Below, in pieces: positions 14,405 through 64,000 of a DNA stretch of 64,000 bases. Both the position numbers and the translations under genes were made by a program. The notes beneath the pieces were generated by a model, which was not told the origin of the DNA, did no database searches, and saw only the letters and a program-made list of their open reading frames with translations. Numbering within the stretch: position 1 is the first letter of the stretch; every line of letters starts with the position of its first letter. Source of the DNA: Enterococcus sp. ZJ1622 (GTDB lineage: Bacteria; Bacillota; Bacilli; Lactobacillales; Enterococcaceae); the NCBI RefSeq assembly GCF_011038845.1, contig NZ_JAAKDW010000001.1:248001-312000 (forward strand), given 5' to 3'.

Positions 14405-14410
14405 CAAAAA

Positions 14411-14442
14411 AACGTCAGAGGCTTAGCCTCTGGCGTTTTTTG
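14411..14442. terminator. Bidirectional terminator between ileS and zwf
   Basis: A 12-bp stem AACGTCAGAGGC/GCCTCTGGCGTT with a TTA loop is flanked by A7 on the left and T6 on the right, so it can end ileS on + and zwf on -. Confidence 0.9.
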
Positions 14443-14446
14443 CGGT

Positions 14447-15970
14447 TCAATCCAATTTTCCTCGTTCTCTGTACCAGTTGTCAGGCTGCCAGATCCATTC
14501 AAAGCCGTCTTTTTCCAAAAGCTCGAAGGCGGCTTGTGGCCCCATAGATCCTGCTTTATAGTTAGGGAATTCAGGATGTGACTGATCCCAAGCTTTACGT
14601 ATCACATCAACGATATGCCAGGATTGAGCAACTTCTTCCCAGTGAGAAAAGTTCGTCCCGTCACCATTCAATGCATCTAAAAGCAGTTTTTCGTAAGCTT
14701 CAGGGCTGTTTTCGACCATTTCAGCACTATTACGATATTCTAGTTTGATCGGTTCCGTGTCAAATCCCTGACCAACTTCTTTCCCATTCAATGACAAAGA
14801 AAAACCTTCTGTCGGCTGGATATAGATAGTCAGTACATTTGGCGGAAGCGTGGTGTCTTTGCAAGGTTCATCGATCGATGTCTTGAAGACATTCACAGGA
14901 ACTTGTTTGAACACGATATTGATACGTGTACCTTTTTCAGTCAAGCGTTTCCCTGTTCGAACGTAGAAAGGAACACCGGACCAGCGGAAATTGTCGATGG
15001 TGAATTTCCCAGCAACGAAGGTCTCTGTTTCAGATTGCGGATCGACTTTGTCTTCTTCTCTGTAGCCTTTGAATGTTGTTCCATCCAGTTTGCCTTGTGC
15101 ATATTGACCGCGTACGAAGTTTTCAAGTACTTCTTTTTCATTGTAGATGCGGATCGCTTTCAGCGCTTTGATTTTTTCAGTCCGGATTTCTTTTTCCGAA
15201 AAAGCCACAGGAGGTTCCATTGCCAGTAAAGCAACGACTTGAAGAATATGATTTTGCACCATGTCTTTCAGTGCGCCACTATGATCGTAATATCCGCCTC
15301 GATCTTCTACTCCAAGGCTTTCGCCGAATGTGATCTGGATATTGTCGATGTAGCGGTTATTCCATTGCGATTCAAAAATGTTATTGGCAAAACGGATTGC
15401 TGAGATGTTTTGGATCATTTCTTTTCCTAGATAATGATCGATCCGGAAAATATCTTTCTCAGGAAAAACTTCGCGGATTTGTTGGTTCAATTCAAAAGCG
15501 GACTGATAGTCAGAACCAAAAGGCTTTTCGATGATCAGCCGATTGAAGCCAGTTTCTGTCACGATCTTCTGAGATTTCAGATGAGAGACGATCGTACCGA
15601 AGAATTGCGGAGCCATGGCCAGATAATAGACCCGGTTACCATTCAGTTGATATTGTTCATCTAATTGATCAGCTAGGATTTTCAATGTTTGATAATGTGT
15701 CGAATCATTGACATCATGTGACTGATAATAAAAATGACTCGCAAAGGTGTTTGCTTCAGCATCAGTCGGATTTAATGAACGGATCGTTTCTTTGACTACT
15801 TCACGGTAATGCTCATTGCTCCAAGGACGTCTGGCCGTACCGATAACAGCGAAATGTTCTCCGAGATTTCCTTTTCTGTAAAGACGGAATAAAGAGGGGT
15901 ATAATTTACGTTGTGCCAAATCGCCTGTACCGCCAAAAATCGTAAATAATGCATTCTTTTCATTAGACAT
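14447..15970 (-). CDS. zwf: Glucose-6-phosphate 1-dehydrogenase
   Basis: Zwf oxidises glucose-6-phosphate to 6-phosphogluconolactone and makes NADPH, the entry step of the oxidative pentose phosphate pathway. The N-terminal coenzyme motif IFGGTGDLAQRKLYP and the substrate signature RIDHYLGKEMIQN are present. The chosen start (MSNEKNALF, AAAGGAG upstream) gives 507 residues, the normal length; the frame is open further upstream but overlaps the neighbouring regulator. It lies 13 nt downstream of that regulator and is probably co-transcribed with it. Confidence 0.97.
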   Translation of the reverse strand: MSNEKNALFTIFGGTGDLAQRKLYPSLFRLYRKGNLGEHFAVIGTARRPWSNEHYREVVKETIRSLNPTDAEANTFASHFYYQSHDVNDSTHYQTLKILADQLDEQYQLNGNRVYYLAMAPQFFGTIVSHLKSQKIVTETGFNRLIIEKPFGSDYQSAFELNQQIREVFPEKDIFRIDHYLGKEMIQNISAIRFANNIFESQWNNRYIDNIQITFGESLGVEDRGGYYDHSGALKDMVQNHILQVVALLAMEPPVAFSEKEIRTEKIKALKAIRIYNEKEVLENFVRGQYAQGKLDGTTFKGYREEDKVDPQSETETFVAGKFTIDNFRWSGVPFYVRTGKRLTEKGTRINIVFKQVPVNVFKTSIDEPCKDTTLPPNVLTIYIQPTEGFSLSLNGKEVGQGFDTEPIKLEYRNSAEMVENSPEAYEKLLLDALNGDGTNFSHWEEVAQSWHIVDVIRKAWDQSHPEFPNYKAGSMGPQAAFELLEKDGFEWIWQPDNWYRERGKLD

Positions 15971-15983
15971 AGGGCATGCTCCT

Positions 15984-16631
15984 TTATAATTTATCGACAA
16001 AAATCGTGCTTGCCGCTTTGAAGCTGACAGGAATTTTTTTTGTTTGATTCTGGATCGTAACGGGTCCTTCATAAGCTGCGATATCGATGATCTCATATTC
16101 CTCATCGATGTTCAGATCGATCGTCACCAAATAATCAAGCAGCTCTTTTTCATCAAGCACCCGTGCAATGCGGATCTTCGTTCCGACCGGGTAGGATTCT
16201 AATGTCTGGCGCCGTTCTTCGTGGACAACCTGTTCTTTTTTTGGAATGATCCCTCCATGCGGACAGTGTTCAGGATGATTCAAATAGTCTTCTAAATGGT
16301 CAGCAAGCTGTTCTGAAGTCACATGTTCCAGTACTTCGGCATCATCGTGTACTTCATTCCAGCTATACGCTAAATGTTCAACTAAAAAAACTTCCCATAA
16401 ACGATGCTTGCGAATCAAACTGCTTGCTTTTTGCAATCCGCTTGCTGTTAATTGTACTCCTTGATAGGGAGAGTGTTCAACAAGCTGTTCCTTCACAAGT
16501 TTAGAAATCATTTCGCTGACAGATGCTGGTGAGACATCCAGACTGGATACGATTTGCTTATTGTTTACTTTTGTTGTATCACCGCCTAGTTCCAAAATGA
16601 TCTTCAAATAATCTTCTCGGTTTGGTGTCAT
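15984..16631 (-). CDS. DtxR/MntR-family metal-dependent repressor (EfaR-like)
   Basis: A metal-responsive repressor, probably for manganese. The N-terminal winged helix covers residues 1-65 (NNKQIVSSLDVSPASVSEMISKL). The dimerisation domain has the metal-ligand pattern D7, H75 and EVLEHV, like MntR. A C-terminal FeoA/SH3-like domain follows from about residue 145. At 215 residues it belongs to the longer IdeR/EfaR/ScaR subgroup rather than the short Bacillus MntR. AAAGGATG precedes the ATG. EfaR-type regulators control the EfaCBA Mn transporter in enterococci; that this is the orthologue is an inference. Confidence 0.9.
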   Translation of the reverse strand: MTPNREDYLKIILELGGDTTKVNNKQIVSSLDVSPASVSEMISKLVKEQLVEHSPYQGVQLTASGLQKASSLIRKHRLWEVFLVEHLAYSWNEVHDDAEVLEHVTSEQLADHLEDYLNHPEHCPHGGIIPKKEQVVHEERRQTLESYPVGTKIRIARVLDEKELLDYLVTIDLNIDEEYEIIDIAAYEGPVTIQNQTKKIPVSFKAASTIFVDKL

Positions 16632-46069: not shown

Positions 46070-46876
46070 ATGTTTAAAGATCTGTTTTTATTTATGAAGG
46101 ATATCTATCAGAACAGAAAATTGCTGCTTCAATTCTCACTGAATGATTTTAAATCACGCTATGCGGGATCATTTTTGGGGATTTTATGGGCATTCATCAA
46201 TCCTGTTTTCACTGTCCTGATCTACTGGCTGGTTTTCGGCTTCGGTTTGAAGGCGCAGATGGTCGATGCAAAATATCCATTTATCGTTTATCTAGTCACT
46301 GGAATAGTCCCATGGTTCTTTTTCTCTGATGCTTTTGCATCGACAACGGTCGTTTTTCGAGAGTATACGTATCTGGTAAAAAAAGTCGTCTTCAATATAA
46401 GGATCTTACCTACGACAAAAATCTTGTCTAATCTGTATACGCATCTTTTCTTTATCCTGATCGGGCTAGGTATAGCGATCGGATACGGCTTTTATCCCTC
46501 GGTGATGACTTTACAATTATTTTACTACCTGTTTTGTATGTGTGCATTCTTGACAGGACTGACATGGCTGACTGCTTCGATCCAACCATTTTTACCTGAC
46601 ATCATGCAGCTGATCACGATCGTTTTGCAGCTGATCATGTGGACTTTGCCGATTCTTTGGAGTACGAACCAGTTCAATCCACAGATCGTGAGAGTGCTGA
46701 AATTGAATCCACTGTACTATATCGTTCAAGGCTATCGCGAATCATTTTTGAGTGAAGCATGGTTCTGGCAGCACGGTGCATATAGCTTGTACTTTTGGAT
46801 CTTCACATTAGCATTGTTTGTGATTGGTTCCGCAGTGTTCCGTAGATTGAAACCACATTTTTCAGATGTGTTGTAA
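46070..46876 (+). CDS. Polysaccharide ABC exporter permease (Wzm/TagG type, EpaL-like)
   Basis: Membrane half of an ABC-2 exporter for lipid-linked polysaccharide. 268 residues, six hydrophobic segments, with the N-terminal LLLQFSLNDFKSRYAGSFLG and WAFINPVFTVLIYWLVF, and ILWSTNQFNPQIVRVLKLNP. CTTGGAGG precedes the ATG. It pairs with the ATPase 11 nt downstream. The corresponding enterococcal gene is usually called epaL; I leave the symbol blank because numbering varies. Confidence 0.94.
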   Translation: MFKDLFLFMKDIYQNRKLLLQFSLNDFKSRYAGSFLGILWAFINPVFTVLIYWLVFGFGLKAQMVDAKYPFIVYLVTGIVPWFFFSDAFASTTVVFREYTYLVKKVVFNIRILPTTKILSNLYTHLFFILIGLGIAIGYGFYPSVMTLQLFYYLFCMCAFLTGLTWLTASIQPFLPDIMQLITIVLQLIMWTLPILWSTNQFNPQIVRVLKLNPLYYIVQGYRESFLSEAWFWQHGAYSLYFWIFTLALFVIGSAVFRRLKPHFSDVL

Positions 46877-46887
46877 GGAGAATAAAC

Positions 46888-48108
46888 ATGACAGAATATG
46901 CGATTAAATTAAACAACATCACAAAATCATATAATATGTACGCAAAACCAACGGATCGCTTCCGTGAAGCACTCAATCCATTCAAAAAATCCTACCATGA
47001 TGTGTTTTATGCATTGAAGAATATCAATGTGGAGATCAAAAAAGGAGAAATGATCGGCTTCGTGGGCGAAAATGGCTCGGGAAAATCAACCATGCTGAAA
47101 ATCATCACTGGCGTATTGACACCCACATCCGGCACGATGGAAATCGAAGGGAAGATTTCTGCGCTGCTTGAATTGGGCTCAGGATTCAATCCTGAATATT
47201 CGGGCTACGACAATATCTATCTGAATGGGATGGTCCTCGGTTTTTCTCGCGAAGAAATCGATGGGATGGTCGATGACATCATTGAATTTGCAGATATCGG
47301 CGATCATATCTATCAGCCAGTCAAGACGTATTCAAGCGGGATGTTTGTCCGACTGGCATTTGCTGTGGCGATCAATGTCAACCCTGATATTTTGATCGTA
47401 GACGAAGCTTTAGCCGTTGGCGATTTGGAATTCCAGTTGAAATGTATGGAAAAATTCACAGAAATCAAAAATTCTGGAAAAACGATTTTATTCGTCTCTC
47501 ACGATATCAGTTCGATCCGTCGTTTCTGTGACCGTTCTTATTGGCTGAAAAACGGAGAGGTCGTTGAATACGGAGATACGATGGACGTTACGACAAACTA
47601 TGAGAACTTTCTGAAGAAAAAGTCAGTAAAAACTGTTGATCGTAACAAGAATCAAGTAGAACGTTTTGCGTCACCTGACATCGTGGATGTACTCAGTGCA
47701 GAATTATTGGACAAAGACAAAAATCCGATCGATGTTTTAGACCAAGGAGAGACGCTTTTAGTCAAAGTGACCTATGAAGTAAAAGATGACTCGATCAAAA
47801 ATCCGGTACTGGGAATCGCTTTGCGCACCGTCGATAATTTTTATGTGTGCGGCTTGAATACGTTATTGGATGGGATCAAGATTCCTTGGAAAAAAGGAAA
47901 GAATGTCTTTTATCTTGAATACGAAAAGTTAGGTTTATTAGCTGGCGAGTATTATTTTGATGTGGCGGTTTTTGAAGAAAACGCGACTGTTCCTTTGGTT
48001 TACAAGACGAAATACATGAATCTATTTGTAAATGGTTCTTATATCGGTGAAGGAATCGTGATCTTGGATCATAAGTGGGAAGAAGGTAGTCATAACGATG
48101 AAGTATGA
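46888..48108 (+). CDS. Polysaccharide ABC exporter ATPase with glycan-recognition domain (Wzt type, EpaM-like)
   Basis: ATP-binding half of the exporter. Walker A GENGSGKSTM near residue 61, signature YSSGMFVRLAFAV, Walker B PDILIVDEALAVGD and the H-loop LFVSHDISSIRRF are complete. From about residue 250 a C-terminal beta-sandwich (VDVLSAELLDKDKNPIDVLD, GLLAGEYYFDVAVFE) matches the Wzt C-terminal domain that reads a terminal group on the chain in O9a-type systems. 406 residues. It overlaps the next gene by 11 nt, which may tie export to the modifying enzyme. Confidence 0.94.
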   Translation: MTEYAIKLNNITKSYNMYAKPTDRFREALNPFKKSYHDVFYALKNINVEIKKGEMIGFVGENGSGKSTMLKIITGVLTPTSGTMEIEGKISALLELGSGFNPEYSGYDNIYLNGMVLGFSREEIDGMVDDIIEFADIGDHIYQPVKTYSSGMFVRLAFAVAINVNPDILIVDEALAVGDLEFQLKCMEKFTEIKNSGKTILFVSHDISSIRRFCDRSYWLKNGEVVEYGDTMDVTTNYENFLKKKSVKTVDRNKNQVERFASPDIVDVLSAELLDKDKNPIDVLDQGETLLVKVTYEVKDDSIKNPVLGIALRTVDNFYVCGLNTLLDGIKIPWKKGKNVFYLEYEKLGLLAGEYYFDVAVFEENATVPLVYKTKYMNLFVNGSYIGEGIVILDHKWEEGSHNDEV

Positions 48109-51910: not shown

Positions 51911-52064
51911 ACTTCGGCAATATTGTATAGGAAGTTGCATCATTCCGTATAAAAGACAAGGTTTTTTTCTTTTAATTTATTTTACAATTTGGTTATTCAC
52001 TAGGTTTTTAAAGTTGGCTATGGTAAGATGATAGAGGCATTATTTAATGGTTAGGAGTGTATAT

Positions 52065-53456
52065 ATGAATAAAAATGGGGAGTGGAATGCAGCACGTCGG
52101 ATATTTATTATCCTGATGGATGTTGTTGTTTTCAACGTATCGATCTATCTTAGCTTTCTGCTGAAATTCCAAGGAGAAGTTCCAGCAAGAAACTTTGAGA
52201 CCTTCCAGCGATCAGCGATCTTTATTTCTATCATCTTTATTGCATTGAATATTTTATTAGGTGCATATGTCTTTTATAATCGGACGATCAGTGACATTGT
52301 TTTCATTACGGTGATCGGGCAAGTCTTGATGATGCTCGGGATCATGGTCGTAACATTTGCTGGCCGCTGGTTTGCTTTTCCGCGTCTGGTGATCATGATG
52401 TCCTTTATTCTCGGTACGCTTTTGCTGAGTTTGTACCGAATACTCGTTTACAAATTGTATTTGAGTGTCAGCCGCGATAAAAAAGTCTTGATCGTGGGAA
52501 AAGAAAAAGACGTAGCGCCTGCTATCCAGAACTTCCAATCGAAGAAAAACAACAAGCATAAGGTAGAAGCAGTGGTGATCGGTGATTACTATGCGCATAC
52601 GAAAGAATTGATCGATGACATCGATATCGTTTATCTGGCTTCTCATATCGAAGAAGAAGAGAAAATCAAAATCTATCAGCTAGTGACGAAAAAAGATAAA
52701 AAGCTATTCTTGAATACGACTTTTGAGAATCTGACAATGATCAATCCGAATATCATGAATTTTGAAGACGAAAGCATCATTGAAGCTTCTGGTTTCAGGA
52801 TCCAGCCGGAATACGAACTGTTCAAACGGCTATTCGATATTCTCGTATCTCTAGTCTTATTGATCATCGCTTCACCGTTCATGCTGATCACAGCAATTTT
52901 AGTGAAAACGACATCCCCAGGTCCGATCATCTACAAACAAGTACGGATCACGAAAAACCAGAAAGAATTTTCGATCTATAAATTTCGCTCGATGAGTGCC
53001 ACAGCTGAAGCAAAATCAGGCCCAGTCCTGGCAAAAAGCAACGATGCACGAGTGACACCAGTTGGTAAATTTATCCGTGCCGTGCGTTTTGATGAGCTGC
53101 CACAGATTTTCAACGTCTTGAAAGGGGATATGTCGATCGTTGGGCCACGTCCGGAAAGACCATTTTTCGTGGATCAGTTCAACGAAGAGAATCCTTATTA
53201 TTACTTGAGACACAATGTGCGCGCTGGGATCACCGGTTATGCACAAGTCTATGGGAAATATGTCTCTGATTACAACAGCAAACTGCGCTTTGACTTGCTG
53301 TACATCAAAAAATATTCCTTGCTGCTAGATTTAAAAATCTTACTGCAAACAATCAAAATCTTGTTTGACAAAATGTCTTCTCAAGGACTGGATGAAGACG
53401 AAAATATCCGCTCATTAGCAGAAATTGCATTTCCAAAAGAAAAAACGTATCGTTAG
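52065..53456 (+). CDS. Polyprenyl glycosylphosphotransferase (WbaP/EpaR-like)
   Basis: An initiating sugar-1-phosphate transferase to undecaprenyl phosphate, distinct in family from EpaA. Four or five N-terminal transmembrane helices and a cytoplasmic CoA-binding-like domain (KKVLIVGKEKDVAPAIQNF) precede the catalytic domain: FKRLFDILVSLVLLI, ITAILVKTTSPGPIIYKQVR, FSIYKFRSMS, RFDELPQIFNVLKGDMSIVG, GPRPERPFFV. The ATG at 52065 fits TTAGGAG. In enterococci epaR has this type and sits where the conserved and variable epa parts meet; the same position here supports an epaR assignment. Confidence 0.93.
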   Translation: MNKNGEWNAARRIFIILMDVVVFNVSIYLSFLLKFQGEVPARNFETFQRSAIFISIIFIALNILLGAYVFYNRTISDIVFITVIGQVLMMLGIMVVTFAGRWFAFPRLVIMMSFILGTLLLSLYRILVYKLYLSVSRDKKVLIVGKEKDVAPAIQNFQSKKNNKHKVEAVVIGDYYAHTKELIDDIDIVYLASHIEEEEKIKIYQLVTKKDKKLFLNTTFENLTMINPNIMNFEDESIIEASGFRIQPEYELFKRLFDILVSLVLLIIASPFMLITAILVKTTSPGPIIYKQVRITKNQKEFSIYKFRSMSATAEAKSGPVLAKSNDARVTPVGKFIRAVRFDELPQIFNVLKGDMSIVGPRPERPFFVDQFNEENPYYYLRHNVRAGITGYAQVYGKYVSDYNSKLRFDLLYIKKYSLLLDLKILLQTIKILFDKMSSQGLDEDENIRSLAEIAFPKEKTYR

Positions 53457-53475: not shown

Positions 53476-54516
53476 ATGAATCATCCGACATTTAGTATTA
53501 TCGTCCCAGTTTATAATGCTGAAGACACGATTTTACGGACATTAGAAACGCTAAGTCAATTGGATTTTCCAGATTATGAAGTGCTATTGATCAATGACGG
53601 CTCCACCGATCATACGGAACAGATCATTTCGGAATTTGTTAAAGAAGATGAGAAAATCCGATTGATCACGACAAAGAATCAAGGTCCCGGACTTGCGCGA
53701 AATGAAGGAATCACACGCGCGAAAGGTAAGTATCTTCTGTTTTTTGATGCGGATGATGCGCCGATAAAAGAAGTTTTATCAGACTATCATACATTATTGA
53801 TGGAAGAACCCGATTCAGATTTGATTATCAGTTCTTTTACATTCCGTACGCTAAGCGATGAAAAATTGATTTCAGAAAAAGACTATCTGGTTCCAGCATA
53901 TCGATACACAAGTCACGAGTTGTTTGTTAATGATATGTATCAGCTGATGAACCAGCAACTGATGTACGTTGTTTGGAACAAGTGCTATCGACGAGACATC
54001 ATAGAACAGCATCAGATTAGGTTCAAAAACTATAGCAGCTGTGAAGATCGTATCTTCAATCTCAATTATTATGAACACTGCCGACAAGTGATTTTGAATC
54101 CTAAGATCGAATATATCTATGATTTCGAAGGCGGGAAAGGAATCACGAACAAATATAATCCAAATAAATTCCAAACATTTAAAGAATTTTATGAACTTGC
54201 TAATTTTGTGACAAAAGAAAAAGACAAGGCTGGGATGGCTTCACTTTTTTTAAAAGGTACTACTTCGGTGATTTTTTCAATCTATGAAACTTCTACGCGA
54301 ACATCTAAAGAGAAAAAACAAGAAGCAATGCAGATACTAAATGATGAAGCGATAAAAGAAGCAAAAAAAATTGCATTAGCTGATTCAAATGCAAAAAAAG
54401 TGACAAAATGGCTCTATAACATGCCAGCGCCATTATTCTTGTCAGCAGTTAAAATGGGAAGCTTCGTGGAAGTCAAAATGCCTGGATTGATGGCGGCTTT
54501 GAAGCGTGTTTATTAG
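53476..54516 (+). CDS. GT2 glycosyltransferase
   Basis: 346 residues. FSIIVPVYNAEDTILRTLET, LLINDGSTDHTEQ, GPGLARNEGITRAKGKYLLF and FFDADDAPI carry the GT2 donor and metal sites. The C-terminal half (residues 200-346) is helical. The start follows ATGGAGGC after the WbaP-like gene, so it is probably the second sugar transferase of the WbaP-initiated glycan. Sugar unknown. From here on the base composition turns more AT-rich. Confidence 0.9.
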   Translation: MNHPTFSIIVPVYNAEDTILRTLETLSQLDFPDYEVLLINDGSTDHTEQIISEFVKEDEKIRLITTKNQGPGLARNEGITRAKGKYLLFFDADDAPIKEVLSDYHTLLMEEPDSDLIISSFTFRTLSDEKLISEKDYLVPAYRYTSHELFVNDMYQLMNQQLMYVVWNKCYRRDIIEQHQIRFKNYSSCEDRIFNLNYYEHCRQVILNPKIEYIYDFEGGKGITNKYNPNKFQTFKEFYELANFVTKEKDKAGMASLFLKGTTSVIFSIYETSTRTSKEKKQEAMQILNDEAIKEAKKIALADSNAKKVTKWLYNMPAPLFLSAVKMGSFVEVKMPGLMAALKRVY

Positions 54517-54532
54517 TTTATGGAGGCGAAAA

Positions 54533-55627
54533 ATGATTAAAAGAATCTTACATTTTCAAGGGAGAATGGGATTAGGCGGTGCTGAATCATTCATGATGAA
54601 CTTGTACCGCAAGATTGACCGTTCAAAATACCAATTTGATTTTTTAATCTATGATGATTATGAGGATGTTCAAGATTACCATGCAGAAATTGAAAAATTA
54701 GGTGGCAGAATATTTGTTGTTACAAATCCTAAAAAAAATATTATCAAATATTTGATTCAAGTCAATCGACTGTTAAAAAAAGAATCATTCAGCATAGCTC
54801 ATAATGAAGTTTATTTTGGTGGCGGTATTAATCTATGGCTAGCGAAAAAAAATGGTATCAAACAAAGAATCGCTCACAGTCATGCTACAGAGGACGGGAA
54901 ATCTCAAAATATGGTAATGAGTTGGCTACGTAGATTTCTGACATATTTGCTTTTAACGAATGCAACAGATTTTCTTGCTGTCAGTAAAGAGGCTGGGGAA
55001 AGTTTATTTAAAGGCCATCCATTTGAAATAGTGCACAATGGGATTAATTTGCAAAGTTATCAGTTTACTGACGAAGAAAAAGCAAGCAAGCGAAAGGAAT
55101 TAGGCTTGTCTACAGAGGACTTTATTATCGGAAATATAGGAAGACTTGAAAAACAAAAAAATCAAGAACGTTTATTAGAAATAACAAAAGAATTAAACCA
55201 TATAAATGAACATACCAAGCTTTTGTTAATCGGAGAAGGAAGTCTTCGAGCAATGTTAGAAGAAAAAATATCCGATCTGGGGATCAAGGACTCAGTAATT
55301 ATGACGGGCGAACGAAACGATATTCCAGAATTATTGTCTATTATGGATGTTTTTGTTATGACATCTTTATATGAAGGATTGCCAATGGTCGGATTAGAAG
55401 CGCAAGCAGCAGAATTAAAGTTAGTATTGGCAGACACAATTTCAAGAGATACTAAACTTACAGATAATGTTGTATTTGTATCTTTGAATGATACAGCAAA
55501 AGAATGGGCAAATCAAATCAATACAAAGCCATATACTAATAAAATAACAGAAGAACTAAAAAGCTATGATGTTTCATATACCACTGCACAAATGGAAAAC
55601 ATATATAGCAGGGAGATTGGAAAGTAA
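54533..55627 (+). CDS. GT4-family glycosyltransferase
   Basis: 364 residues, GT-B fold. N-terminal HFQGRMGLGGAESFMMNLYR and FDFLIYDDYEDVQDYHAEIE, then FIIGNIGRLEKQKNQERLLE, LLIGEGSLRAMLEE and the EX7E-type donor site MTSLYEGLPMVGLEAQAAE. It resembles EpsF/CapM-like capsule enzymes. The ATG at 54533 follows ATGGAGGCG. Sugar unknown. Confidence 0.92.
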   Translation: MIKRILHFQGRMGLGGAESFMMNLYRKIDRSKYQFDFLIYDDYEDVQDYHAEIEKLGGRIFVVTNPKKNIIKYLIQVNRLLKKESFSIAHNEVYFGGGINLWLAKKNGIKQRIAHSHATEDGKSQNMVMSWLRRFLTYLLLTNATDFLAVSKEAGESLFKGHPFEIVHNGINLQSYQFTDEEKASKRKELGLSTEDFIIGNIGRLEKQKNQERLLEITKELNHINEHTKLLLIGEGSLRAMLEEKISDLGIKDSVIMTGERNDIPELLSIMDVFVMTSLYEGLPMVGLEAQAAELKLVLADTISRDTKLTDNVVFVSLNDTAKEWANQINTKPYTNKITEELKSYDVSYTTAQMENIYSREIGK

Positions 55628-55654: not shown

Positions 55655-56617
55655 TTGGAAATTTGCTATTTAATATTGGCATATAATGATATTGAAAACT
55701 TAAAAAGATTGATTGATCGTTTAAATAAAAATGCTGTTTTTTTTATTCATATTGATAAAAAAACTAATATTGAACCATTTATACAAGAATTTAAATTGTA
55801 TAAAAACGTGAATTTTTTACGAGGAAATGACCGTGTAAAAATTTATTGGGGAGGTTTTTCAATTGTTCAAGCTGAAATTAATTTAGTTTTAAAGGCGTTA
55901 CAAAATGGAAAGTATTTAAAATATGTTTTATTGTCGGGAGCGGATTATCCAATCAAAGATAATGAATATATATATAATTACTTTAAAAAAAATCAATCAA
56001 TAGAATTTATCAGGGGAATAAATTTAGATAATTTAGACCACAAGGAATTTTATGCTAAACATATAGATGTTTATCAAAAACATGATTATCCTATGATAAA
56101 TAAAAACAATACAATTGTCTTTAAAACATTTAGAGCAATGGTTAATCGTTTTTTAAGGTTAGTTAAGCTTCCCCCAAAAATTAGGCATCATAAATTTGAT
56201 CTATACCATGGCTCTCAATGGTGGGCTCTTTCCAAAGAATGTTTAGAGGAATTAATGACTATGTATAAAGATAATGAGGAAGACTATTTAAATTTCAAAA
56301 TTGGCATGTTTGCTTCCGATGAAAAATTTTTTCATACTCTTTTTTTCAACTCATCCTATAAAAATGAAAATGTTGTACATGGACCTGATGAACCATTGAA
56401 ATTGAGAAATGTAGAAGAAACTCCGTTACAAACTTCAAGGCTAGCAAATATTCATATTATTGATCCATCAATGAATAAGTGGTTTGATGAACGTGATTTT
56501 AATCAAATAAAAAAGAGTGATAAACTTTTTGTGAGAAAGGTTAAGTCAGGGTATTCTGATAAACTATTAAATAAAATTGACAATGAAATTCTGAAAGTTG
56601 GAAGTATAAATGAATAA
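55655..56617 (+). CDS. Core-2/I-branching-type beta-1,6-N-acetylglucosaminyltransferase family protein (GT14)
   Basis: 320 residues, beginning at TTG 55655 after TTTGGAG. YLILAYNDIENLKRLIDRLN, FFIHIDKKTN, VKIYWGGFSIVQAEINLVL, YVLLSGADYPIKDNEYIYNY and the GSQWWALSKECLEEL region with SDEKFFHTLFFNS are characteristic of GT14, here in its bacterial branch. In capsule loci such enzymes add a branch sugar; donor and linkage are not readable. It overlaps the next gene by 8 nt and the composition is clearly AT-rich. Confidence 0.88.
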   Translation: MEICYLILAYNDIENLKRLIDRLNKNAVFFIHIDKKTNIEPFIQEFKLYKNVNFLRGNDRVKIYWGGFSIVQAEINLVLKALQNGKYLKYVLLSGADYPIKDNEYIYNYFKKNQSIEFIRGINLDNLDHKEFYAKHIDVYQKHDYPMINKNNTIVFKTFRAMVNRFLRLVKLPPKIRHHKFDLYHGSQWWALSKECLEELMTMYKDNEEDYLNFKIGMFASDEKFFHTLFFNSSYKNENVVHGPDEPLKLRNVEETPLQTSRLANIHIIDPSMNKWFDERDFNQIKKSDKLFVRKVKSGYSDKLLNKIDNEILKVGSINE

Positions 56618-58037
56618 AATAATTTCTGTTTTCAAAAAAAATATTCTGAGCCGCGATTTATTTAGGATAGTAAATTTAATAATCTGTTTGTTCTATTTTA
56701 TGCCTAGTACCTTTAATATAACCAACATACCCATGAAAATAGCGTTTGTATGGGGAAGTGGTATAGTATTATACGAAATTTTTATACGAAAAAATTTTTT
56801 TAAAATGTCTTACTCCTTTTTATTAATTGTAGCAATACTTAGCTTTATGGTAACGATATTACTAAATAGAGAACATTTTTTAATTCCTTCACTTTATAAT
56901 TTGGGTTATTTATTAATCACCCTAATAGTAATTTTCCCTACTGATTTTTCGCAAAGTAAAGAAACAAAAAAAATGAAAATGCTGCAATTTAATAATGTTT
57001 TTATCATTATAGTTTTTTTTGCTGCATTGATATCACTTTACCAATTTGTGCTTTTAATTGCTTATCATGTTCCAACAGGTACTCCAGGCTTATTTGCTAG
57101 ACAAGGATTTATTGAACACAGATTATTTGGTGTATATACTAGCCCAAATGTGGGAGCTATGTTTGGATATACGTCTATTGTTTTGAGTTTAATTAGCGGG
57201 TTAATAAGAAAGTTAACTACGAAAACTCGTGTATTTTATGGGTTAAACTTTATTGTTCAAGTATTTTACATCACACTTTCGTCTTCAAGAGGAGCACAAG
57301 CAGTAATATGTAGCTTTTTAATATTGTTTGTTTTATTACTGTCCTTTTCAAGTTTTAGAAAAAGCATAGCTAAGGTCACATCTATAAAAACTAGATGGTT
57401 GTTAAGTCTACTACTTCTATTACTTTTATATTTTTCTGTTGGTAACACTTATGCTAAAGATTTTTTAGCTACAGTTCCTATATCAATTGAAAAAGAAGTC
57501 AAAATTGTAGAGCCTGAAAAAAATGAAGAAAATACAAATCCACCAAAGAAAGTGGTATTACAACATTCTGATAATGATTCAGAAGTTTCAGCTGGACGCT
57601 TTGCAATTTGGAAAGCGGCAGCAAAGGCGATGAAAACAGCACCGTTATTTGGATATGGTGAGACGGATTTTTACGGTAATAGTGATGGAAGAATTTTAAA
57701 TAAGGTTGAACTTAGTACTTCTGATCAGAATGAATTGAAGAGGGCTCATGGAAATATGCATAATGGATTCCTTCAAGTTTTTGTATCTAGTGGTATAATT
57801 GGATTTATATTCTTTTATATTTTTTATGCATGTAATCTTTTTAATCTGATTAAAGCATTCTTGACCAATAAAGTAGATTATGTTTTTCTCGGAATTGTTT
57901 TGATATTTATATTATCTATTTTTGTAGATGAAATGGTTGAAGCGCATGTACTTTTCAATAAACGCGATGTAATATCAATTGTTTTTTGGTATTATTTAGG
58001 TAATTTATCTTACCTATATTTAAAAAAGGAGAATTGA
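56610..58037 (+). CDS. Wzy-type polysaccharide polymerase / O-antigen ligase family
   Basis: 475 residues with about ten transmembrane segments and a large external loop (residues 285-370). SSSRGAQAVICSFLILFVLL, GRFAIWKAAAKAMKTAPLFG and GNMHNGFLQVFVSSGIIG match the Wzy_C/O-antigen ligase pattern. In a cluster with a Wzx flippase and a WbaP initiator it is the likely repeat-unit polymerase. One nucleotide separates it from the next gene. Confidence 0.9.
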   Translation: MNKIISVFKKNILSRDLFRIVNLIICLFYFMPSTFNITNIPMKIAFVWGSGIVLYEIFIRKNFFKMSYSFLLIVAILSFMVTILLNREHFLIPSLYNLGYLLITLIVIFPTDFSQSKETKKMKMLQFNNVFIIIVFFAALISLYQFVLLIAYHVPTGTPGLFARQGFIEHRLFGVYTSPNVGAMFGYTSIVLSLISGLIRKLTTKTRVFYGLNFIVQVFYITLSSSRGAQAVICSFLILFVLLLSFSSFRKSIAKVTSIKTRWLLSLLLLLLLYFSVGNTYAKDFLATVPISIEKEVKIVEPEKNEENTNPPKKVVLQHSDNDSEVSAGRFAIWKAAAKAMKTAPLFGYGETDFYGNSDGRILNKVELSTSDQNELKRAHGNMHNGFLQVFVSSGIIGFIFFYIFYACNLFNLIKAFLTNKVDYVFLGIVLIFILSIFVDEMVEAHVLFNKRDVISIVFWYYLGNLSYLYLKKEN

Positions 58038-58038
58038 G

Positions 58039-59100
58039 ATGAGGATTGCTTTTGTTGCCTGGACTCCTTTACATTTGATTAACATAATAAACGTTTATAA
58101 AAATTTTTATCAAGAATCAAAAAGTGACTTGTATATATATTCGGAGTTTGAAAATGCAACGACATATAGTCAACGTTTGGAAAAATTAGGGATATTCGAT
58201 AGAGTTATTTTAGTGGATCATAAAAAAATAGGCTCCACTTTAAAAAGAAAATTAAATTTAATTACTAATCATAACCAGTTTTTTTCTAATAAATTTGATT
58301 ATTATGATGAGATTTTTATACAAGGAGAGAATTATTTTACAAAGATTCTTTTTTCAAATGCTTATAAAAATAATAAAAATGTTAAATTGAATTATATAGA
58401 AGACGGTTTAGGGACCTATTTAAATAATAATATCTTTTTAACTAGTAAAAATATTCAAAAGTTTTTTATGACAATGAATAGATATAGCATTTTTTCTAAA
58501 AAGATTGATACCTATTTTGTTTATTGCCCGGAGTTGCTGCTTTATGACGTTAAAGACGTGAAAAAAATACCTAAAATAGCAGAAAAAAGTGAATTGATGA
58601 GTACTCTTACAGCTATTTTTGGTTTAGAGAAACTTTCTGTTGAAAATAAAAGTATTTTTTTTGATCAACCTTTGCTTAATGATGGTTATGGTGTTGATGA
58701 GACAATAATTTTTACTCGCGTAAAAAAAATACTACCTAAATCAAGAGAAACTGTGGTTAAATTACATCCTAGATCTGATTTAAATCGTTATGGGGAAAAT
58801 ATCAACTTATTGGGAACACAGCTACCGTTTGAAGTATTACTAGCTGAAAATGATTTTTCTTCTACACTTTTAATCAGTCCAATATCTACTATTTCTTTTT
58901 CTCCATCTATGATGTTTGAAAAAAATATAAACTCCATTTTGTTAGCAAAATTGATTCTCAGAGAATATCCAACATTGGCTGATGCAAAAAGAGAAACATT
59001 AGAAAACATAGCATTATTTTGTCAAAAATATAATAATTTATCAGAAAAGAAAATATTACTTCCCTCAAGTTGGGACGAACTAAGAAAGTTGGTTGAATAA
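58039..59100 (+). CDS. Candidate sialyltransferase-like protein (GT52/polysialyltransferase type)
   Basis: 353 residues with no transmembrane segment. It shows the motif pair of bacterial sialyltransferases: an acidic-acidic-Gly motif EDG at residues 121-123 ([11 protein letters not shown]) and a His-Pro motif at 243-244 (VKLHPRSD), followed by a Ser-rich [12 protein letters not shown] (279-290). The N terminus ([20 protein letters not shown]) resembles GT52/CpsK-like proteins. It lies between a polymerase and a flippase and upstream of neuB-neuC-neuD, so it is the best candidate to transfer the nonulosonic acid. Overall similarity cannot be tested here, so the call is an inference from motifs and context. 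Confidence 0.72.
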
Positions 59101-60526
59101 ATTCATGGGATTAATTAACACACTTTCCAAATCAAAACTAATCAAATCAAGTTTTTGGTACACAATCGGAAACTTTTTTATTAAAGGCATTTCATTTATA
59201 ACTATTCCAATTTTTGTAAATATTACTACTCAAGCTGAATATGGTTTAATTAATAATTTTGCATCTTTTGTCTCAATTTTTTCAATACTGGTTGGATTAA
59301 GTCTAAATTCAGCTATTAATAATGCTAGTTTTGATTATAAAAATGAAATAAATGAGTTCATGTCAGCTGCGCTTTCACTAGCTACCCTTTCATTAACTGT
59401 TTTTTTAATATTCGGAAATATATATTTTGTATTTACAGATGAATTTTTTAATATGAATCAAATTGTGTTTAATTTAATGTTGTTACAAAGTTTTGCTAGT
59501 TTTGTAATTAGTTATATTCAAGCATATTTTACTATTAACTTTAATCACTTTAAATACTTAATTTTATCATTTGTATCTACTATATTGAATGTGGCTGCTT
59601 CCGTAGCACTGATGCAAACTTTATACGTAGAAAATAAATATATTGGTAGAGTAGTTGGTGGAACATTAGCCTTTGTATTAATTGGTTTAATAATATATTT
59701 GCGAATAATGATTAAGGGAAAGCACTTTTTTGATAAAAAACAATGGAAATATGCTTTAAAAATTTCATTGCCTTTGATACCACATTCTTTAGCAAATATA
59801 GTTTTAGCTCAATTTGATAGAATTATGATTAATTCCTATTTAGGTCCTGCTGCTGGAGGAATATATTCATATATCAGCAATATAGGTATAATTTTAAGTG
59901 TAGTATGGATGTCAACTAATAACGCGTGGGTGCCGTGGTTTTATGGTGAAATGAGTAAAAAAAATGAGAAGACAGTGAAAAAAGTTAGCAATTACTATCT
60001 CTTAGCGTTTACTCTAATTACAATGATTGTGATGGTTGTTTCCATAGATTTGGCAAAATTTATGGCTCCAAAAGAATATTATCCTGGATTATCTTTGGTT
60101 ATTCCTATTACTTTAGGGTATTTCTTCCAATTTTTGTATAGTTTCCCAGTCAATGCGGAATTCTATGAGAAAAAAACATCTTTTATAGCTATCGGGACAA
60201 TAGCAAGTGCTGTAATCAATGTATTGTTAAATATAATTTTTATACCTGAATTTGGAATTATTGCTGCAGGGTATACGACAGTATTTACTTACTTTTTACT
60301 CTTCTTGTTCCATTATAATATTGCAAAAAAAATTACAGGCAAACAATTATTTGACACAAAAAAAATATGTATCATAATAGTTTTTGTATCGATTTTTTCA
60401 TTAGCACTTCATGTATTAATCAATCAAATAGTTATTCGCTATGTACTGACATTGTTATTGATTATTAGTTTCGGTATTTATTTTTTGAAAAACAAAGATC
60501 GAATTATAGATGATTATAATTCATAA
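59093..60526 (+). CDS. Wzx-type polysaccharide flippase (MATE/MOP superfamily)
   Basis: 477 residues and 12-14 transmembrane segments. [40 protein letters not shown] and [19 protein letters not shown] are typical of the polysaccharide-transport branch. It would flip the undecaprenyl-linked repeat unit. TTG 59093 overlaps the preceding gene's end; ATG 59105 is a close alternative, and neither has a good ribosome site, so coupling to the upstream gene is likely. Confidence 0.93.
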
Positions 60527-60538
60527 GGAGTGGTAGTA

Positions 60539-61546
60539 GTGTTTAAAGGAAAAACAATATTAGTTACTGGTGGAACTGGGTCCATTGGAAGTGAAATCGT
60601 TCGGCAACTATTGAAATTTGAACCAAAAGCAATTAGAATTTTTAGCCGTGGTGAAGAAAAACAATTTTATATGCAACAAGAACTTTCCCAGTATTCTAAT
60701 TTAAGATTTTTAATTGGTGATATCAGGGATCCTCAGAGAATTGATTATGCGTGTCGCGATGTCGACATTATCTTCCATGCTGCAGCCATGAAGCACGTTC
60801 CAGCAAGCGAGTATAATCCGATGGAAGCGGTGAAGACAAATGTGATGGGAACTCAAAACGTAATAGACGCCGCAATAAAAAATGATGTTAAACATTTTGT
60901 AGGTATTAGTACAGATAAAGTAGTAAGTCCTACTAATACGATGGGAACGACAAAATTGTTAAGTGAAAAGTTAATAATCGCTGCAAATCAATATAAAGGA
61001 AAAACAGAAACAAATTTTTCTTGCGTGAGATTTGGCAATGTCATGGGTTCAAGTGGATCGGTAATCCCCCTTTTTTGCAAACAATTAGAGAACAATAAGG
61101 ACATCACACTAACGGATAGTAATATGACTCGATTTATGATGTCTATACCAGATGCTGCAAAATTAGTATTGTCTGCTGCTATGAACTCAAAATTTGGAGA
61201 GACGTATGTTCTAAAAATGCCTTCAATCAAAATTTTAACTTTAGCTCAGGCATTGATAGATTTGTATAATAGTACGCATGAGAGTAAATATAAAGGTGAA
61301 ATCAAAATTGTAGGTGTGAGACCTGGTGAAAAGCTATATGAAGAGCTGATGACTGTGGACGAAATTGAGCGATCATATGAAAATGATAAAATGTATATTA
61401 TCCCACCACATTATCATGCAACTGATAAACTTTATGAAGACTATGAAAAAATAAAAATCACTGCATATTCTTCGGATACTACTGATTTAATGAGCGGACA
61501 AGAATTTATCAATATTGTAAAAGAGAATAAGATTATCGAGTGGTAA
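60539..61546 (+). CDS. Nucleotide-sugar 4,6-dehydratase (CapE/PseB/LegB-type SDR)
   Basis: An extended SDR of 335 residues that most likely removes water from UDP-GlcNAc. The NAD(P) loop VTGGTGSIGSE (residues 9-19), FHAAAMKHVPASEYNPMEAV, ISTDKVVSPTNTMGTTK and GVRPGEKLYEELMT are present. The catalytic position is Met135-x3-Lys139 rather than Tyr-x3-Lys, as in CapE/WbpM-type dehydratases. GTG 60539 fits TAAGGAG. Upstream of neuB and neuC it could start a legionaminic- or pseudaminic-type pathway, or make another amino sugar for the repeat unit. Confidence 0.88.
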   Translation: MFKGKTILVTGGTGSIGSEIVRQLLKFEPKAIRIFSRGEEKQFYMQQELSQYSNLRFLIGDIRDPQRIDYACRDVDIIFHAAAMKHVPASEYNPMEAVKTNVMGTQNVIDAAIKNDVKHFVGISTDKVVSPTNTMGTTKLLSEKLIIAANQYKGKTETNFSCVRFGNVMGSSGSVIPLFCKQLENNKDITLTDSNMTRFMMSIPDAAKLVLSAAMNSKFGETYVLKMPSIKILTLAQALIDLYNSTHESKYKGEIKIVGVRPGEKLYEELMTVDEIERSYENDKMYIIPPHYHATDKLYEDYEKIKITAYSSDTTDLMSGQEFINIVKENKIIEW

Positions 61547-61557
61547 GGGGGAGAAAA

Positions 61558-62562
61558 ATGGAATCTCAAGTATATATAATTGCGGAGATTGGAGTAAATC
61601 ACAATGGAAGTCTTGATTTAGCCTTAAAAAGTATTGATAAAGCCAAAGAATGTGGAGCTGATGCGGTTAAATTCCAAACATTTAAGACAAGTAAATTAGT
61701 TTCTAAAAAAGCTCCAATGGCAAAATATCAGAAAGCTAATTTGGAGAAAGATGGTTCTCAATTTGATATGTTAGAAAAATTGGAATTATCAAAGTCAGAT
61801 TTTATTGAAATAAAACAATATTGTGCGCAAAAGGAAATTGATTTTTTGTCTACCCCTTTCGATGACGAAAGTGCGGCATTTTTAAAAGAAATAGGGGTAG
61901 AAGGATTTAAAATTGGTTCCGGAGATCTAACCAATCTACCTTTTCTTAGAAAAATTGATATGTATGGACTACCAATCCTATTATCTACGGGTATGTCTAA
62001 TATGGATGAAGTCAGAGAAGCTATGGCGTGTTTTGTGGATAGTCCTGTAACAATCCTTCATTGTACATCTAACTATCCTGCTGCTCCTGAAGATATTAAT
62101 TTATTAGCTATCAATTCATTGAAGGAAACATTTAATGTGCCTGTAGGGTATTCTGACCATTCTTTAGGGTATGACGTTGGGATTTGCTCAGTTGCAATGG
62201 GTGCAAAAGTGATTGAAAAACATTTTACTTTGGATACGTCATTGCCTGGGCCAGACCACAAAGCTTCTTTGGATCCTAAAGAATTTAAGGAGTTTGTAAA
62301 TCATATTAGAAATGCTGAAGTTTTTCTAGGTGATGGTGTTAAAAGAGCAATGCCATCTGAACTTAGCACTAAAGATGTTTCTAGAAAAAGTTTAGTTGTT
62401 ACTAAAGATCTGAGTGTCGGAGATACTCTATCAGAAGAATCTCTTACAATTAAACGTCCGGGAAATGGATTAGCACCTAAATATTTATATCAATATATTG
62501 GGAAAAGGGTCAAGAAATCAATAAGCGCAGATAGCATTCTGCTTGAGGAAGATGTTGAATGA
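61558..62562 (+). CDS. neuB: N-acetylneuraminate (or related nonulosonate) synthase NeuB
   Basis: Condenses a six-carbon amino sugar with phosphoenolpyruvate to make a nine-carbon acid (Neu5Ac from ManNAc, or legionaminate from its analogue). AEIGVNHNGSLDLA (residues 9-22), FKIGSGDLTNLPFL, LHCTSNYPA, GYSDHSLGYDV and EKHFTLD are the barrel motifs; a C-terminal SAF antifreeze-like domain (VTKDLSVGDTLSEESL) follows. 334 residues is standard. ATG 61558 follows AAGGGGGAG. Its stop overlaps the neuC start (ATGA). Sequence inspection alone does not separate NeuB from LegI. Confidence 0.93.
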   Translation: MESQVYIIAEIGVNHNGSLDLALKSIDKAKECGADAVKFQTFKTSKLVSKKAPMAKYQKANLEKDGSQFDMLEKLELSKSDFIEIKQYCAQKEIDFLSTPFDDESAAFLKEIGVEGFKIGSGDLTNLPFLRKIDMYGLPILLSTGMSNMDEVREAMACFVDSPVTILHCTSNYPAAPEDINLLAINSLKETFNVPVGYSDHSLGYDVGICSVAMGAKVIEKHFTLDTSLPGPDHKASLDPKEFKEFVNHIRNAEVFLGDGVKRAMPSELSTKDVSRKSLVVTKDLSVGDTLSEESLTIKRPGNGLAPKYLYQYIGKRVKKSISADSILLEEDVE

Positions 62563-63707
62563 AGAAAATCTTTATAGTGAGTGGCACTCGTGCTGATTAT
62601 GGAATATATAAGCCAGTTGCTGAAGAATTAAAACGAAGCAATTGGGATGTGTCATTTGTTGTTTCTGGTATGCATCTAGCTCATCAATATGGATTTACCA
62701 AGGAAATAATTTTAAAAGATGGTTTTAAAATTGTTGGAGAAGTTCAGAGTCTCTTCTTAGAAAATACGAAGGGAAACATGGCACGCTCAGTTTCATTAGA
62801 AATAAGTGGTTTTACCAATATTTTTGAGCAACATAACCCTGATTTTGTTTTATTGTTAGGAGATAGAGGAGAAATGCTAGCAGCTGGAATTGCTTGCTTA
62901 TATCTGGGTATCAAAACAGCTCATATTCATGGGGGTGAAAGATCTGGTACCGTAGATGAATCAATTAGACATGCTGTTTCAAAGTTATCTTCAGTTCATT
63001 TTACTGCTACAAAGAAGAGTAAGGAACGTTTATTAAAAATGGGAGAGGATTCTTGGAGAATCTTTTCTGTAGGTGCTCCTAGAATCGATACAATCTTGAA
63101 TAGTAAATTACCTAGTTTTGAGAGTATACAAAAAAAATATAATTTTAATTTTGAGAAAAAAGAATATATTTTACAAGTGTTTCATCCTGTGGTTACAGAA
63201 TTAGAAAATATTGAAAAACAAGTATTGACTTTGATAAAGGCTATGAAGAATGAATCAGTTCCAATTATCTGCATTTTACCTAATAGCGATGCTGGAAGTG
63301 AGATTATTCGAAAAATATACCAAGAAAACTTTATTTCAAATATCATATATATAAGCAACTTAAATCCTGAAGAATATTTAACAGTATTGAAAGAATGTAG
63401 GTTTATGATTGGGAATTCTTCTTCTGGGATAATTGAAGCAGCTTCTTTCAAAATACCAGTTATAAATTTAGGAACTAGGCAAAACGGACGTGAGCAATCT
63501 CCAAACATTATAAATGCAAATTTAGAAGTTAATGAAATTGAAACTGCATTAAAGTATGTTCAAAATCCTGTCTTTTTAAACAAATTAAGTAACGTTGTAA
63601 ATATCTACGGCGATGGTAGAAGTGCCAAAAGAATAGTCAAAATATTGAATAAAATTTTGGATGAGAAGGAAGAGTTGAAGTGGATTCAGAAAAAAATAGC
63701 TTATTAA
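62559..63707 (+). CDS. neuC: Hydrolysing UDP-N-acetylhexosamine 2-epimerase NeuC
   Basis: Converts UDP-GlcNAc (or a UDP-diacetamido-sugar, LegG) into free ManNAc (or analogue), the substrate of NeuB. FIVSGTRADYGIYKPV at the N terminus, LLGDRGEMLAAGIAC, AHIHGGERSGTVDESIRHAV, GAPRIDTI and IGNSSSGIIEAASFKIP are conserved. 382 residues. ATGA overlap with neuB shows translational coupling, and it overlaps the neuD start by 28 nt. Confidence 0.93.
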   Translation: MKKIFIVSGTRADYGIYKPVAEELKRSNWDVSFVVSGMHLAHQYGFTKEIILKDGFKIVGEVQSLFLENTKGNMARSVSLEISGFTNIFEQHNPDFVLLLGDRGEMLAAGIACLYLGIKTAHIHGGERSGTVDESIRHAVSKLSSVHFTATKKSKERLLKMGEDSWRIFSVGAPRIDTILNSKLPSFESIQKKYNFNFEKKEYILQVFHPVVTELENIEKQVLTLIKAMKNESVPIICILPNSDAGSEIIRKIYQENFISNIIYISNLNPEEYLTVLKECRFMIGNSSSGIIEAASFKIPVINLGTRQNGREQSPNIINANLEVNEIETALKYVQNPVFLNKLSNVVNIYGDGRSAKRIVKILNKILDEKEELKWIQKKIAY

Positions 63708-64000
63708 AATATTCCAAATATCAATATATCATTATTGGCGCAGGTGGGCACGCAAAGGTCATTCTTGAGACTTTAAGATTAGAGAATAAAAAAATTTATG
63801 GATTTTTCGATGATAATAATGTTAAATTACAAGGACTAAAGTATCTTGGTACAATAAAAGAACTGAACAAATGGACGGATAAAGAGAAAGAAAAATATAA
63901 GTTTATTATAGCTATTGGTGATTGTGCTGTGAGAAAAAAAATTGTGGAACAATTGAATTTATCTAGTGAACAATATGGGGTAGCTATTCATCCTAGTGCT
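63680..64000 (+). CDS. neuD: NeuD-family sugar O-/N-acetyltransferase (5' part)
   Basis: Only the first 107 codons are in the window. GTG 63680 (AGGAAGAG upstream) starts MDSENSLLKYSKYQ, followed by the PglD/NeuD N-terminal nucleotide-binding fold YIIIGAGGHAKVILETL, GFFDDNN, YLGTIKEL and FIIAIGDCAVRKKI. The left-handed beta-helix acetyltransferase domain would follow beyond the edge. NeuD-type proteins acetylate sialic acid or its precursor. The 28-nt overlap with neuC is in a different frame. Confidence 0.9.
   Translation, partial: MDSEKNSLLKYSKYQYIIIGAGGHAKVILETLRLENKKIYGFFDDNNVKLQGLKYLGTIKELNKWTDKEKEKYKFIIAIGDCAVRKKIVEQLNLSSEQYGVAIHPSA

Follow-up and report, generated by a model that had tools for sequence, protein, structure and literature searches.

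A probable nonulosonic-acid cassette behind an epaR-like gene

The window, a 64,000-nucleotide stretch of the genome of Enterococcus sp. ZJ1622 (G000:C11:248001-312000), ends inside a cassette that probably builds and attaches di-N-acetyllegionaminic acid or a close derivative, and that begins after an epaR-like gene. Among its genes is one for a 353-residue protein, a candidate transferase of nonulosonic acids activated with cytidine monophosphate (CMP), and this transferase, not the product, is the interesting part of the locus. The stretch past the end of the window is L003 (C11:310000-328000), and the genes are, in order:

46070-48108: ABC exporter of the TagGH/Wzm-Wzt type, upstream, belonging to the epa core by position
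52047..53456, + strand: EpaR-like priming sugar-phosphate transferase (PF02397 Bac_transf, 222 bits), closing the conserved epa core
53476..54516, + strand: glycosyltransferase of family 2 (GT2) type (PF00535)
54527..55627, + strand: GT4-type glycosyltransferase (Pfam Glycos_transf_1)
55655..56617, + strand: glycosyltransferase of the Core-2/I-branching type (PF02485)
56610..58037, + strand: Wzy-like polymerase (PF04932 Wzy_C)
58039..59100, + strand: candidate CMP-nonulosonate (legionaminyl) transferase, 353 residues, GT38-like predicted GT-B fold
59093..60526, + strand: Wzx-like flippase (PF01943 Polysacc_synt)
60530..61546, + strand: CapD-type nucleotide-sugar 4,6-dehydratase (PF02719 Polysacc_synt_2, 379 bits)
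61540..62562, + strand: NeuB/LegI-type nonulosonate synthase (TIGR03569, 448 bits against a cut-off of 399.65; NeuB and SAF)
62559..63707, + strand: NeuC/LegG-type hydrolysing 2-epimerase (TIGR03568, 437 bits against a cut-off of 235.9; Epimerase_2)
63680..64000, + strand: start of a NeuD/PglD/LegH-type acetyltransferase gene that runs beyond the window (PF17836 PglD_N)
L003:2348-3490, beyond the window end: aminotransferase
L003:3503-4480, beyond the window end: first Gfo/Idh oxidoreductase
L003:4485-5387, beyond the window end: second Gfo/Idh oxidoreductase
L003:5388-6131: cytidylyltransferase, i.e. CMP-nonulosonate synthetase (PF02348, 51.4 bits, above cut-off)
L003:6148-7095: galE-like gene after the cytidylyltransferase
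L003:7186-8358, - strand: gene with a beta-lactamase fold (PF00144), closing the cassette

The initial annotation had described an epa-linked nonulosonic-acid module with a candidate sialyltransferase, in which neuB, neuC and neuD overlap beside Wzx- and Wzy-like genes. Such a module, with an enzyme of sialyltransferase fold, is borne out and can now be placed after the epaR-like gene. The overlaps measure 7 bases for dehydratase and neuB, 4 for neuB and neuC and 28 for neuC and neuD, and the Pfam cut-offs of Wzy_C, Polysacc_synt, Polysacc_synt_2, NeuB and SAF, Epimerase_2 and PglD_N are exceeded by the open reading frames of the window. The complete NeuD-type protein has 225 residues (L003:1681-2358, ending at G000:C11:312357) and scores 232.6 bits with TIGR03570, above cut-off. 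A CMP-sugar synthetase, for which a search past position 64000 had been proposed, is present 3.4 kb beyond the window end; because its PF02348 match lies above cut-off, L003:5388-6131 is a cytidylyltransferase. Beyond the PF00144 gene follow a YceG/MltG gene and then a gene that is greA-like by eye.

Before the cassette stand a PF00953 gene, rml genes (recognized by eye), ABC-exporter genes (ABC2/ABC_tran and Wzt_C) and GT2 genes, followed by the PF02397 epaR-like gene, whose name is given by position with reference to the order in E. faecium (PMC3433357). For a variable region of the enterococcal polysaccharide antigen (EPA), lying directly 3' of epaR after the core, the kinds of genes and their order fit, with no Epa reference protein entering the comparison. 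In the epaR-like gene the G+C content is 0.40; it lies at 0.265-0.35 in the stretch that follows, up to and including the cytidylyltransferase, with 0.27-0.28 for that gene, wzx and the 353-residue transferase, and rises to 0.445 in the galE-like gene. In E. faecium, epa extension loci 1-4 lie after epaR according to the available text of PMC3433357, and the words sialic, neuraminic and neuB are absent from its main text in a word search. According to the same source, some E. faecium have a PF00144 gene in the interval from epaO to epaR; the interval between the epaO-like and epaR-like genes of E. durans also contains one (L026:2662-3645, - strand).

The 353-residue transferase candidate

Two bacterial sialyltransferase motifs had been noted in the 353-residue protein, and both are there: EDG at residues 121-123 and HP at residues 243-244 (reading frame 58039-59100). 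The residues can be compared with those of the GT38 polysialyltransferase of Mannheimia haemolytica (MhPST), in which, as given in the available part of PMC5517516, E153 serves as base, S339/T340 and the HP-motif residue H291 are placed at the phosphate, and E323 at the ribose. The correspondence follows motif order and is not a residue or structural alignment:

58399..58407, + strand: E121-D122-G123, motif presumed to supply the catalytic base, corresponding to E152/E153 of MhPST
58765..58773, + strand: H243-P244-R245, presumed to bind the CMP phosphate and stabilize the leaving group, equated with H291 of MhPST
58831..58833, + strand: E265, presumed ribose-binding Glu, equated by order only with E323 of MhPST
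58885..58890, + strand: S283-T284, presumed phosphate-binding pair, equated by order only with S339/T340 of MhPST

Seven of these residues, E121, G123, H243, P244, R245, E265 and S283, are invariant in all 15 members of the family (13 from the order search described below, plus G020 and G026). At position 122, 14 members have D and one has E; at position 284, 14 have T and one has S. In the tree of the transferases, the three most distant members (G371, G194 and G255) have long branches and unsure places. The Pfam polysialyltransferase model PF07388 matches the 353-residue protein with an E-value of 1.7e-9 and 38.2 bits against a cut-off of 23.3.

The predicted model of the protein has a mean predicted local distance difference test score of 90.6, and the match to a sialyltransferase fold that had been sought was found: MhPST (5wcn/5wc6) ranks first in both Foldseek and VIA. 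The N. meningitidis sialyltransferase NST (2yk4, GT52) comes third in Foldseek (E 6.9e-7, template modelling (TM) score 0.40) and is not among the 50 VIA rows listed. An assignment to "GT52 and related" enzymes had been proposed. The fold supports the related part, being GT38-like; GT52 identity itself was rejected, as PF07922, the GT52 model, gave no match for the protein at E 0.01 or E 1 and none in G000. Judged by profile and predicted model, the enzyme looks GT38-like rather than GT52.

Several observations weigh against reading the protein as a sialyltransferase relative. The TM-score of 0.52 for 5wcn is modest, other GT-B enzymes follow it, and some GT-B 2-epimerases that act on N-acetylglucosamine (GlcNAc) linked to uridine diphosphate (UDP) score as high (1f6d, 0.54). 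GT80 and unrelated GT-B enzymes are not separated by Z-value, both occurring at 13-15, and phmmer found no solved chain by sequence, either with the protein itself or with a profile of 8 members. PF07388 also matches the GT52 proteins in all five genomes that have PF07922, and is therefore not specific. As to the motifs, the pair [DE][DE]G and, 90-160 residues on, HP occurs in 2 of the 39 window reading frames of at least 250 residues, the other being a methyltransferase-domain frame at 48098, although among 5000 shuffles of the protein its frequency is as low as 0.16%. Moreover, SpsB of B. subtilis bears DEG and HP, yet its loss left the level of legionaminic acid (Leg) in spores undiminished, according to the part of PMC7439481 available. 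Because of the second frame and the SpsB precedent, the motif pair alone is weak evidence; it is raised above chance by the Pfam match, the conservation in 15 members and the fold match.

The SpsB precedent (PMC7439481), together with the modest TM-scores and the missing PDB sequence match, would also suit a look-alike in motif only, with a different donor or no transferase activity at all, the nonulosonic acid then being attached by the product of another gene. Such a look-alike is very unlikely in view of the fold rank, the active-site set kept in 15 of 15 members and the linkage to NeuB in 13 of 13 genomes. Remoter still is a polysialyltransferase-like polymerase making a nonulosonic acid homopolymer: bacterial polysialyltransferases are nearest in profile and fold, and a TagGH/Wzm-Wzt-type ABC exporter lies upstream (46070-48108, though epa core by position), but Wzx and Wzy-like genes directly flank the transferase, and a priming transferase and three more glycosyltransferase genes stand upstream, as for a repeat-unit polymer. 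The 353-residue enzyme very probably transfers a CMP-nonulosonate.

Linkage and donor genes among relatives

The distribution of the family was followed in 105 genomes of the family of the window and 395 of its order (Lactobacillales), the order search using E up to 1e-5 for the transferase profile A2 and up to 1e-20 for NeuB (PF03102); G020 and G026 lie outside the order-level sample. Among the 105 genomes, NeuB exceeds the TIGR03569 cut-off in four, and each of these carries the transferase, with an arrangement of genes that is shared but not identical throughout. Homologues of the GT2 gene at 53476..54516 occur in all four enterococcal loci, the window counted. The loci of G020 and G026 are without a homologue of the branching-type glycosyltransferase, and in G026 the Gfo/Idh pair is lacking and the Wzy-like gene is replaced by an unrelated-looking, polymerase-like gene. 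PF07388 missed the transferase homologues of G020 and G026 (C25). The E. durans homologue shares 70% identity with the 353-residue protein. In G085, a NeuB-like gene scores 306.5 against the TIGR03569 cut-off of 399.65, and no transferase match is listed.

Within the order, the transferase family is present in 13 of 395 genomes and NeuB in 24, and all 13 fall within the 24. In 12 of the 13, transferase and NeuB lie on one contig within 18 kb. Fisher p-values of 3e-18 and, when only the 7 genomes that supplied no query are counted, of 1e-10 are optimistic because of kinship among the genomes. The 11 NeuB genomes without the transferase family comprise five with PF07922 and six without PF07922 or PF07388 above cut-off; PF07922 is found in none of the 13 genomes with the transferase family, and the family in none of the five PF07922 genomes. 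In plasmids, tblastn gave no match for the transferase, phage records, viral contigs and metagenome contigs lying outside that search. Weak, sub-cut-off PF07388 matches in G004 and G006 (586-residue frames) were set aside as not belonging to the transferase family; neither is found by profile A2, and the G004 stretch had no blastp match among the window genes. A second PF07388 protein, the product of a different gene, lies in another cluster of Enterococcus sp. 669A (L023, G026:C57, 21456-22145).

The genes beside the 15 members fall into several types. Eight neighbourhoods are of Leg type (G000, G002, G020, G026, G158, G179, G234 and G371). Two resemble sets for N-acetylneuraminic acid (Neu5Ac), with NeuD, NeuB, a GDSL-fused CMP synthetase and NeuC (G144, which is C. 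jeotgali, and G194). In four (G147, G188, G266 and G326), NeuB is accompanied by a fusion of CMP synthetase and PseG-like hydrolase; two of these fusions were scanned with the PseG model and scored 146.4 and 135.6 bits against 153.55, below cut-off. One (G255) is like a set for 2-keto-3-deoxynononic acid (Kdn), with NF058599 at 142.1 against 180 bits, also below cut-off.

In the Kdn-like stretch (L071:418-3939), NeuB, a fusion of CMP synthetase and HAD phosphatase (like Kdn-9-phosphate phosphatase, sub-cut-off) and a distant transferase member adjoin. Fusions of CMP synthetase and PseG-like hydrolase beside NeuB are seen at L031:2685-5393, L032:17674-20437, L067:14662-17374, L072:6815-9524 and L050:11850-12965, and the stretches around them contain no dehydratase or aminotransferase homologue. 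In G266, a 617-residue CapD-like gene lies about 20 kb from the fusion (L051). Near the fusion in Marinilactibacillus stands a gene like non-hydrolysing UDP-GlcNAc 2-epimerases, which suggests an unusual route to a nonulosonate derived from N-acetylmannosamine. Very large related proteins (964-1112 residues) are present in Carnobacterium-type polysaccharide loci (L029:3423-6503 and 13028-16366, L065:10540-13434, L069:7155-10412).

The most telling pair is C. jeotgali and G158, which are 94% identical in Wzy, 90% in Wzx, 80% in the branching-type glycosyltransferase and 80% in the transferase, and only 36-54% identical in NeuB, NeuC and NeuD; C. jeotgali carries the Neu5Ac-like and G158 the canonical Leg gene set. 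Outside the single gene in each locus, no PF02348 match in either genome exceeds 29 bits. Sequence comparison here suggests that the donor was swapped under a nearly constant assembly line. For C. jeotgali the Neu5Ac reading has a weak point: some 100 kb from the locus, the genome also carries an aminotransferase resembling LegC (357.8 bits) and a CapD-like dehydratase. Against G194, which has no LegC match, C. jeotgali is 68% identical in NeuB, 47% in NeuA and 60% in NeuC.

With relatives beside sets resembling those for Leg, Neu5Ac, Kdn and pseudaminic acid, the clade may serve several CMP-nonulosonates. It is a tentative proposal, with prospects slightly short of even, that members of a Gram-positive GT38-like clade have changed partners among activated nonulosonic acids (Neu5Ac, Leg by two routes, the product of the PseF-PseG-like fusion and a Kdn-like acid). 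If this is true, the clade would hold dedicated legionaminyltransferases and reveal how donor choice is set.

The sugar, its assembly and known systems

The alternative of sialic or legionaminic acid had been left in the initial annotation; a nonulosonic-acid gene set is indeed present, and it fits legionaminic acid, a bacterial relative of sialic acid, better than sialic acid itself. The dehydratase, aminotransferase and acetyltransferase argue for Leg rather than Neu5Ac, and the sugar is probably Leg or a derivative. The TIGR03570, TIGR03568 and TIGR03569 models for NeuD/LegH, NeuC/LegG and NeuB/LegI are all passed, and are common to the Neu pathway. The best solved relatives of NeuC, 5zlr and 5xvs, bear the molecule name UDP-diNAcBac 2-epimerase and the titles NeuC or UDP-GlcNAc 2-epimerase. 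The cytidylyltransferase is 51-55% identical to those of G158, G179, G234 and G371, where it accompanies LegB, LegC and a PtmE-like nucleotidyltransferase (PtmE presumably being the name for the nucleotidyltransferase of the route through guanosine diphosphate (GDP)), and 27% identical to the GDSL-fused type. LegC is above cut-off in all four genomes; in L049, LegB scores 515.6 against 475 and LegC 462.5 against 420, both above cut-off, and in G179 the two parts of the set are on separate contigs. From these four relatives we infer Leg specificity for the cytidylyltransferase of the cassette, and we read the enterococcal loci as using a UDP route and the four genomes a GDP-type route to Leg.

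The dehydratase contains, by eye, the triad T-x9-M-x3-K, and its nearest solved relative is 6bwc 'CapD', which we take to be Pen of B. thuringiensis; the nearest solved chains of the aminotransferase are 1o61/4ztc, presumably PglE. An inverting step of PseB type, considered at first, lost ground through the PseB score of the dehydratase (351 bits against a cut-off of 407.75) and through 6bwc being nearest, though neither decides the stereochemistry. The triad is borne by SpsM of the B. subtilis Leg pathway, and in an spsM mutant pen-pal or pglF restored Leg, in the available portion of PMC7439481. Since the inverting CapE has the same triad, and replacement of spsM by pen was incomplete, the triad does not fix the stereochemistry.

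The Leg assignment also has evidence on the other side. The dehydratase is below all equivalog cut-offs shown; the best NCBIfam model of the aminotransferase, TIGR04181 (LegC), reaches 370 against a cut-off of 420; pen alone failed or only partly restored Leg in the spsM mutant (PMC7439481, available text); and the two Gfo/Idh proteins have no explained role in the cassette. The NeuB and NeuC models do not tell Neu5Ac from Leg, as both kinds pass: in G179, whose set includes LegB and LegC, NeuB scores 517.5 bits with TIGR03569 and NeuC 503.9 bits with TIGR03568. The tandem Gfo/Idh oxidoreductases (L003:3503-5387) stand directly before the CMP synthetase; in the stretches read, the pair is found in every Leg locus but that of G026 (7 of 8) and in 0 of 7 non-Leg stretches, and possibly serves oxidation and reduction tailoring of Leg.

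A reading in which NeuC, NeuB and the cytidylyltransferase make CMP-Neu5Ac and NeuD O-acetylates it, another amino sugar of the same repeat coming from the dehydratase and aminotransferase, could draw on NeuB passing TIGR03569, NeuC passing TIGR03568, and transferases of the clade beside the Neu5Ac-like sets of C. jeotgali and G194. It is unlikely, in that the single acetyltransferase seen is of the PglD type, the dehydratase and aminotransferase directly flank neuBCD in all four enterococcal loci, and the CMP synthetase is closer to that of the LegB/LegC genomes (51-55%) than to the GDSL-fused type (27%).

For the Leg reading, gene families suggest the following route, in which the reactions, the sugar made, its acceptor and the place of attachment are all deduced; what was observed is which genes are present, how they are arranged, their matches to profiles and folds, their linkage and their conservation. 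UDP-GlcNAc would be dehydrated by the 60530 enzyme, and the product aminated (L003:2348-3490) and N-acetylated (63680-) to UDP-di-N-acetylbacillosamine, which the NeuC-like enzyme (62559) would hydrolyse and epimerize. The NeuB-like enzyme (61540) would condense the resulting sugar with phosphoenolpyruvate to Leg5Ac7Ac, and the cytidylyltransferase (L003:5388-6131) would yield CMP-Leg. The 353-residue enzyme, presumably with D122 as base and with H243 and S283/T284 holding the CMP phosphate, would pass Leg with inversion to a lipid-linked oligosaccharide primed by the EpaR-like enzyme and lengthened by the GT2, GT4 and branching-type enzymes. Wzx would flip and Wzy polymerize the repeat unit, and the polymer would most likely be an EPA-type wall decoration or a capsule. 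Mimicry of host glycans, as suggested initially, is not supported.

Polysaccharides of E. faecium TX16 contain legionaminic acid, and such a polysaccharide has been studied as a vaccine antigen, according to the available text of a review (PMC12413058), the one statement on Leg in enterococci found by literature search among the matches listed. The product is therefore not new on the enterococcal surface, and the locus offers a genetic basis for comparison with it. Among the matches listed, titles and abstract beginnings revealed no publication dealing with a nonulosonate gene locus or transferase of enterococci, which does not prove absence. Maf4 is a putative flagellin legionaminyltransferase, and information on such enzymes is described as very limited in the part of PMC11356810 (2024) available. 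The locus represents a compact candidate transferase family with strong linkage evidence, and with natural relatives beside other donors, donor specificity is directly testable.

UDP-route legionaminic acid pathways occur also in L. pneumophila and others, and SpsG is PseG-like. The sps Leg pathway of B. subtilis has, as here, a T-x9-M-x3-K dehydratase (PMC7439481, available text), an aminotransferase, an acetyltransferase, a NeuB-type synthase and a cytidylyltransferase, and uses SpsG where the window has a NeuC-type epimerase; no Leg transferase is identified for B. subtilis in that text. Like the EPA decoration region of enterococci, of which the variable region of E. faecalis is an example in the available text of PMC8428557, the cassette is AT-rich and directly follows the epaR-like gene. 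The GT52 enzyme NST of N. meningitidis (2yk4) belongs to the same superfamily as the window enzyme, and PF07388 matches both. With GT38 MhPST, the window enzyme has in common the GT-B fold, the D/E-D/E-G and HP motifs, the order of the Glu and the S/T pair and a hidden Markov model score above cut-off, at 16% identity in structural alignment; it differs in its Gram-positive Wzx/Wzy locus, its Leg-type donor genes and the unlikelihood of polymerase activity.

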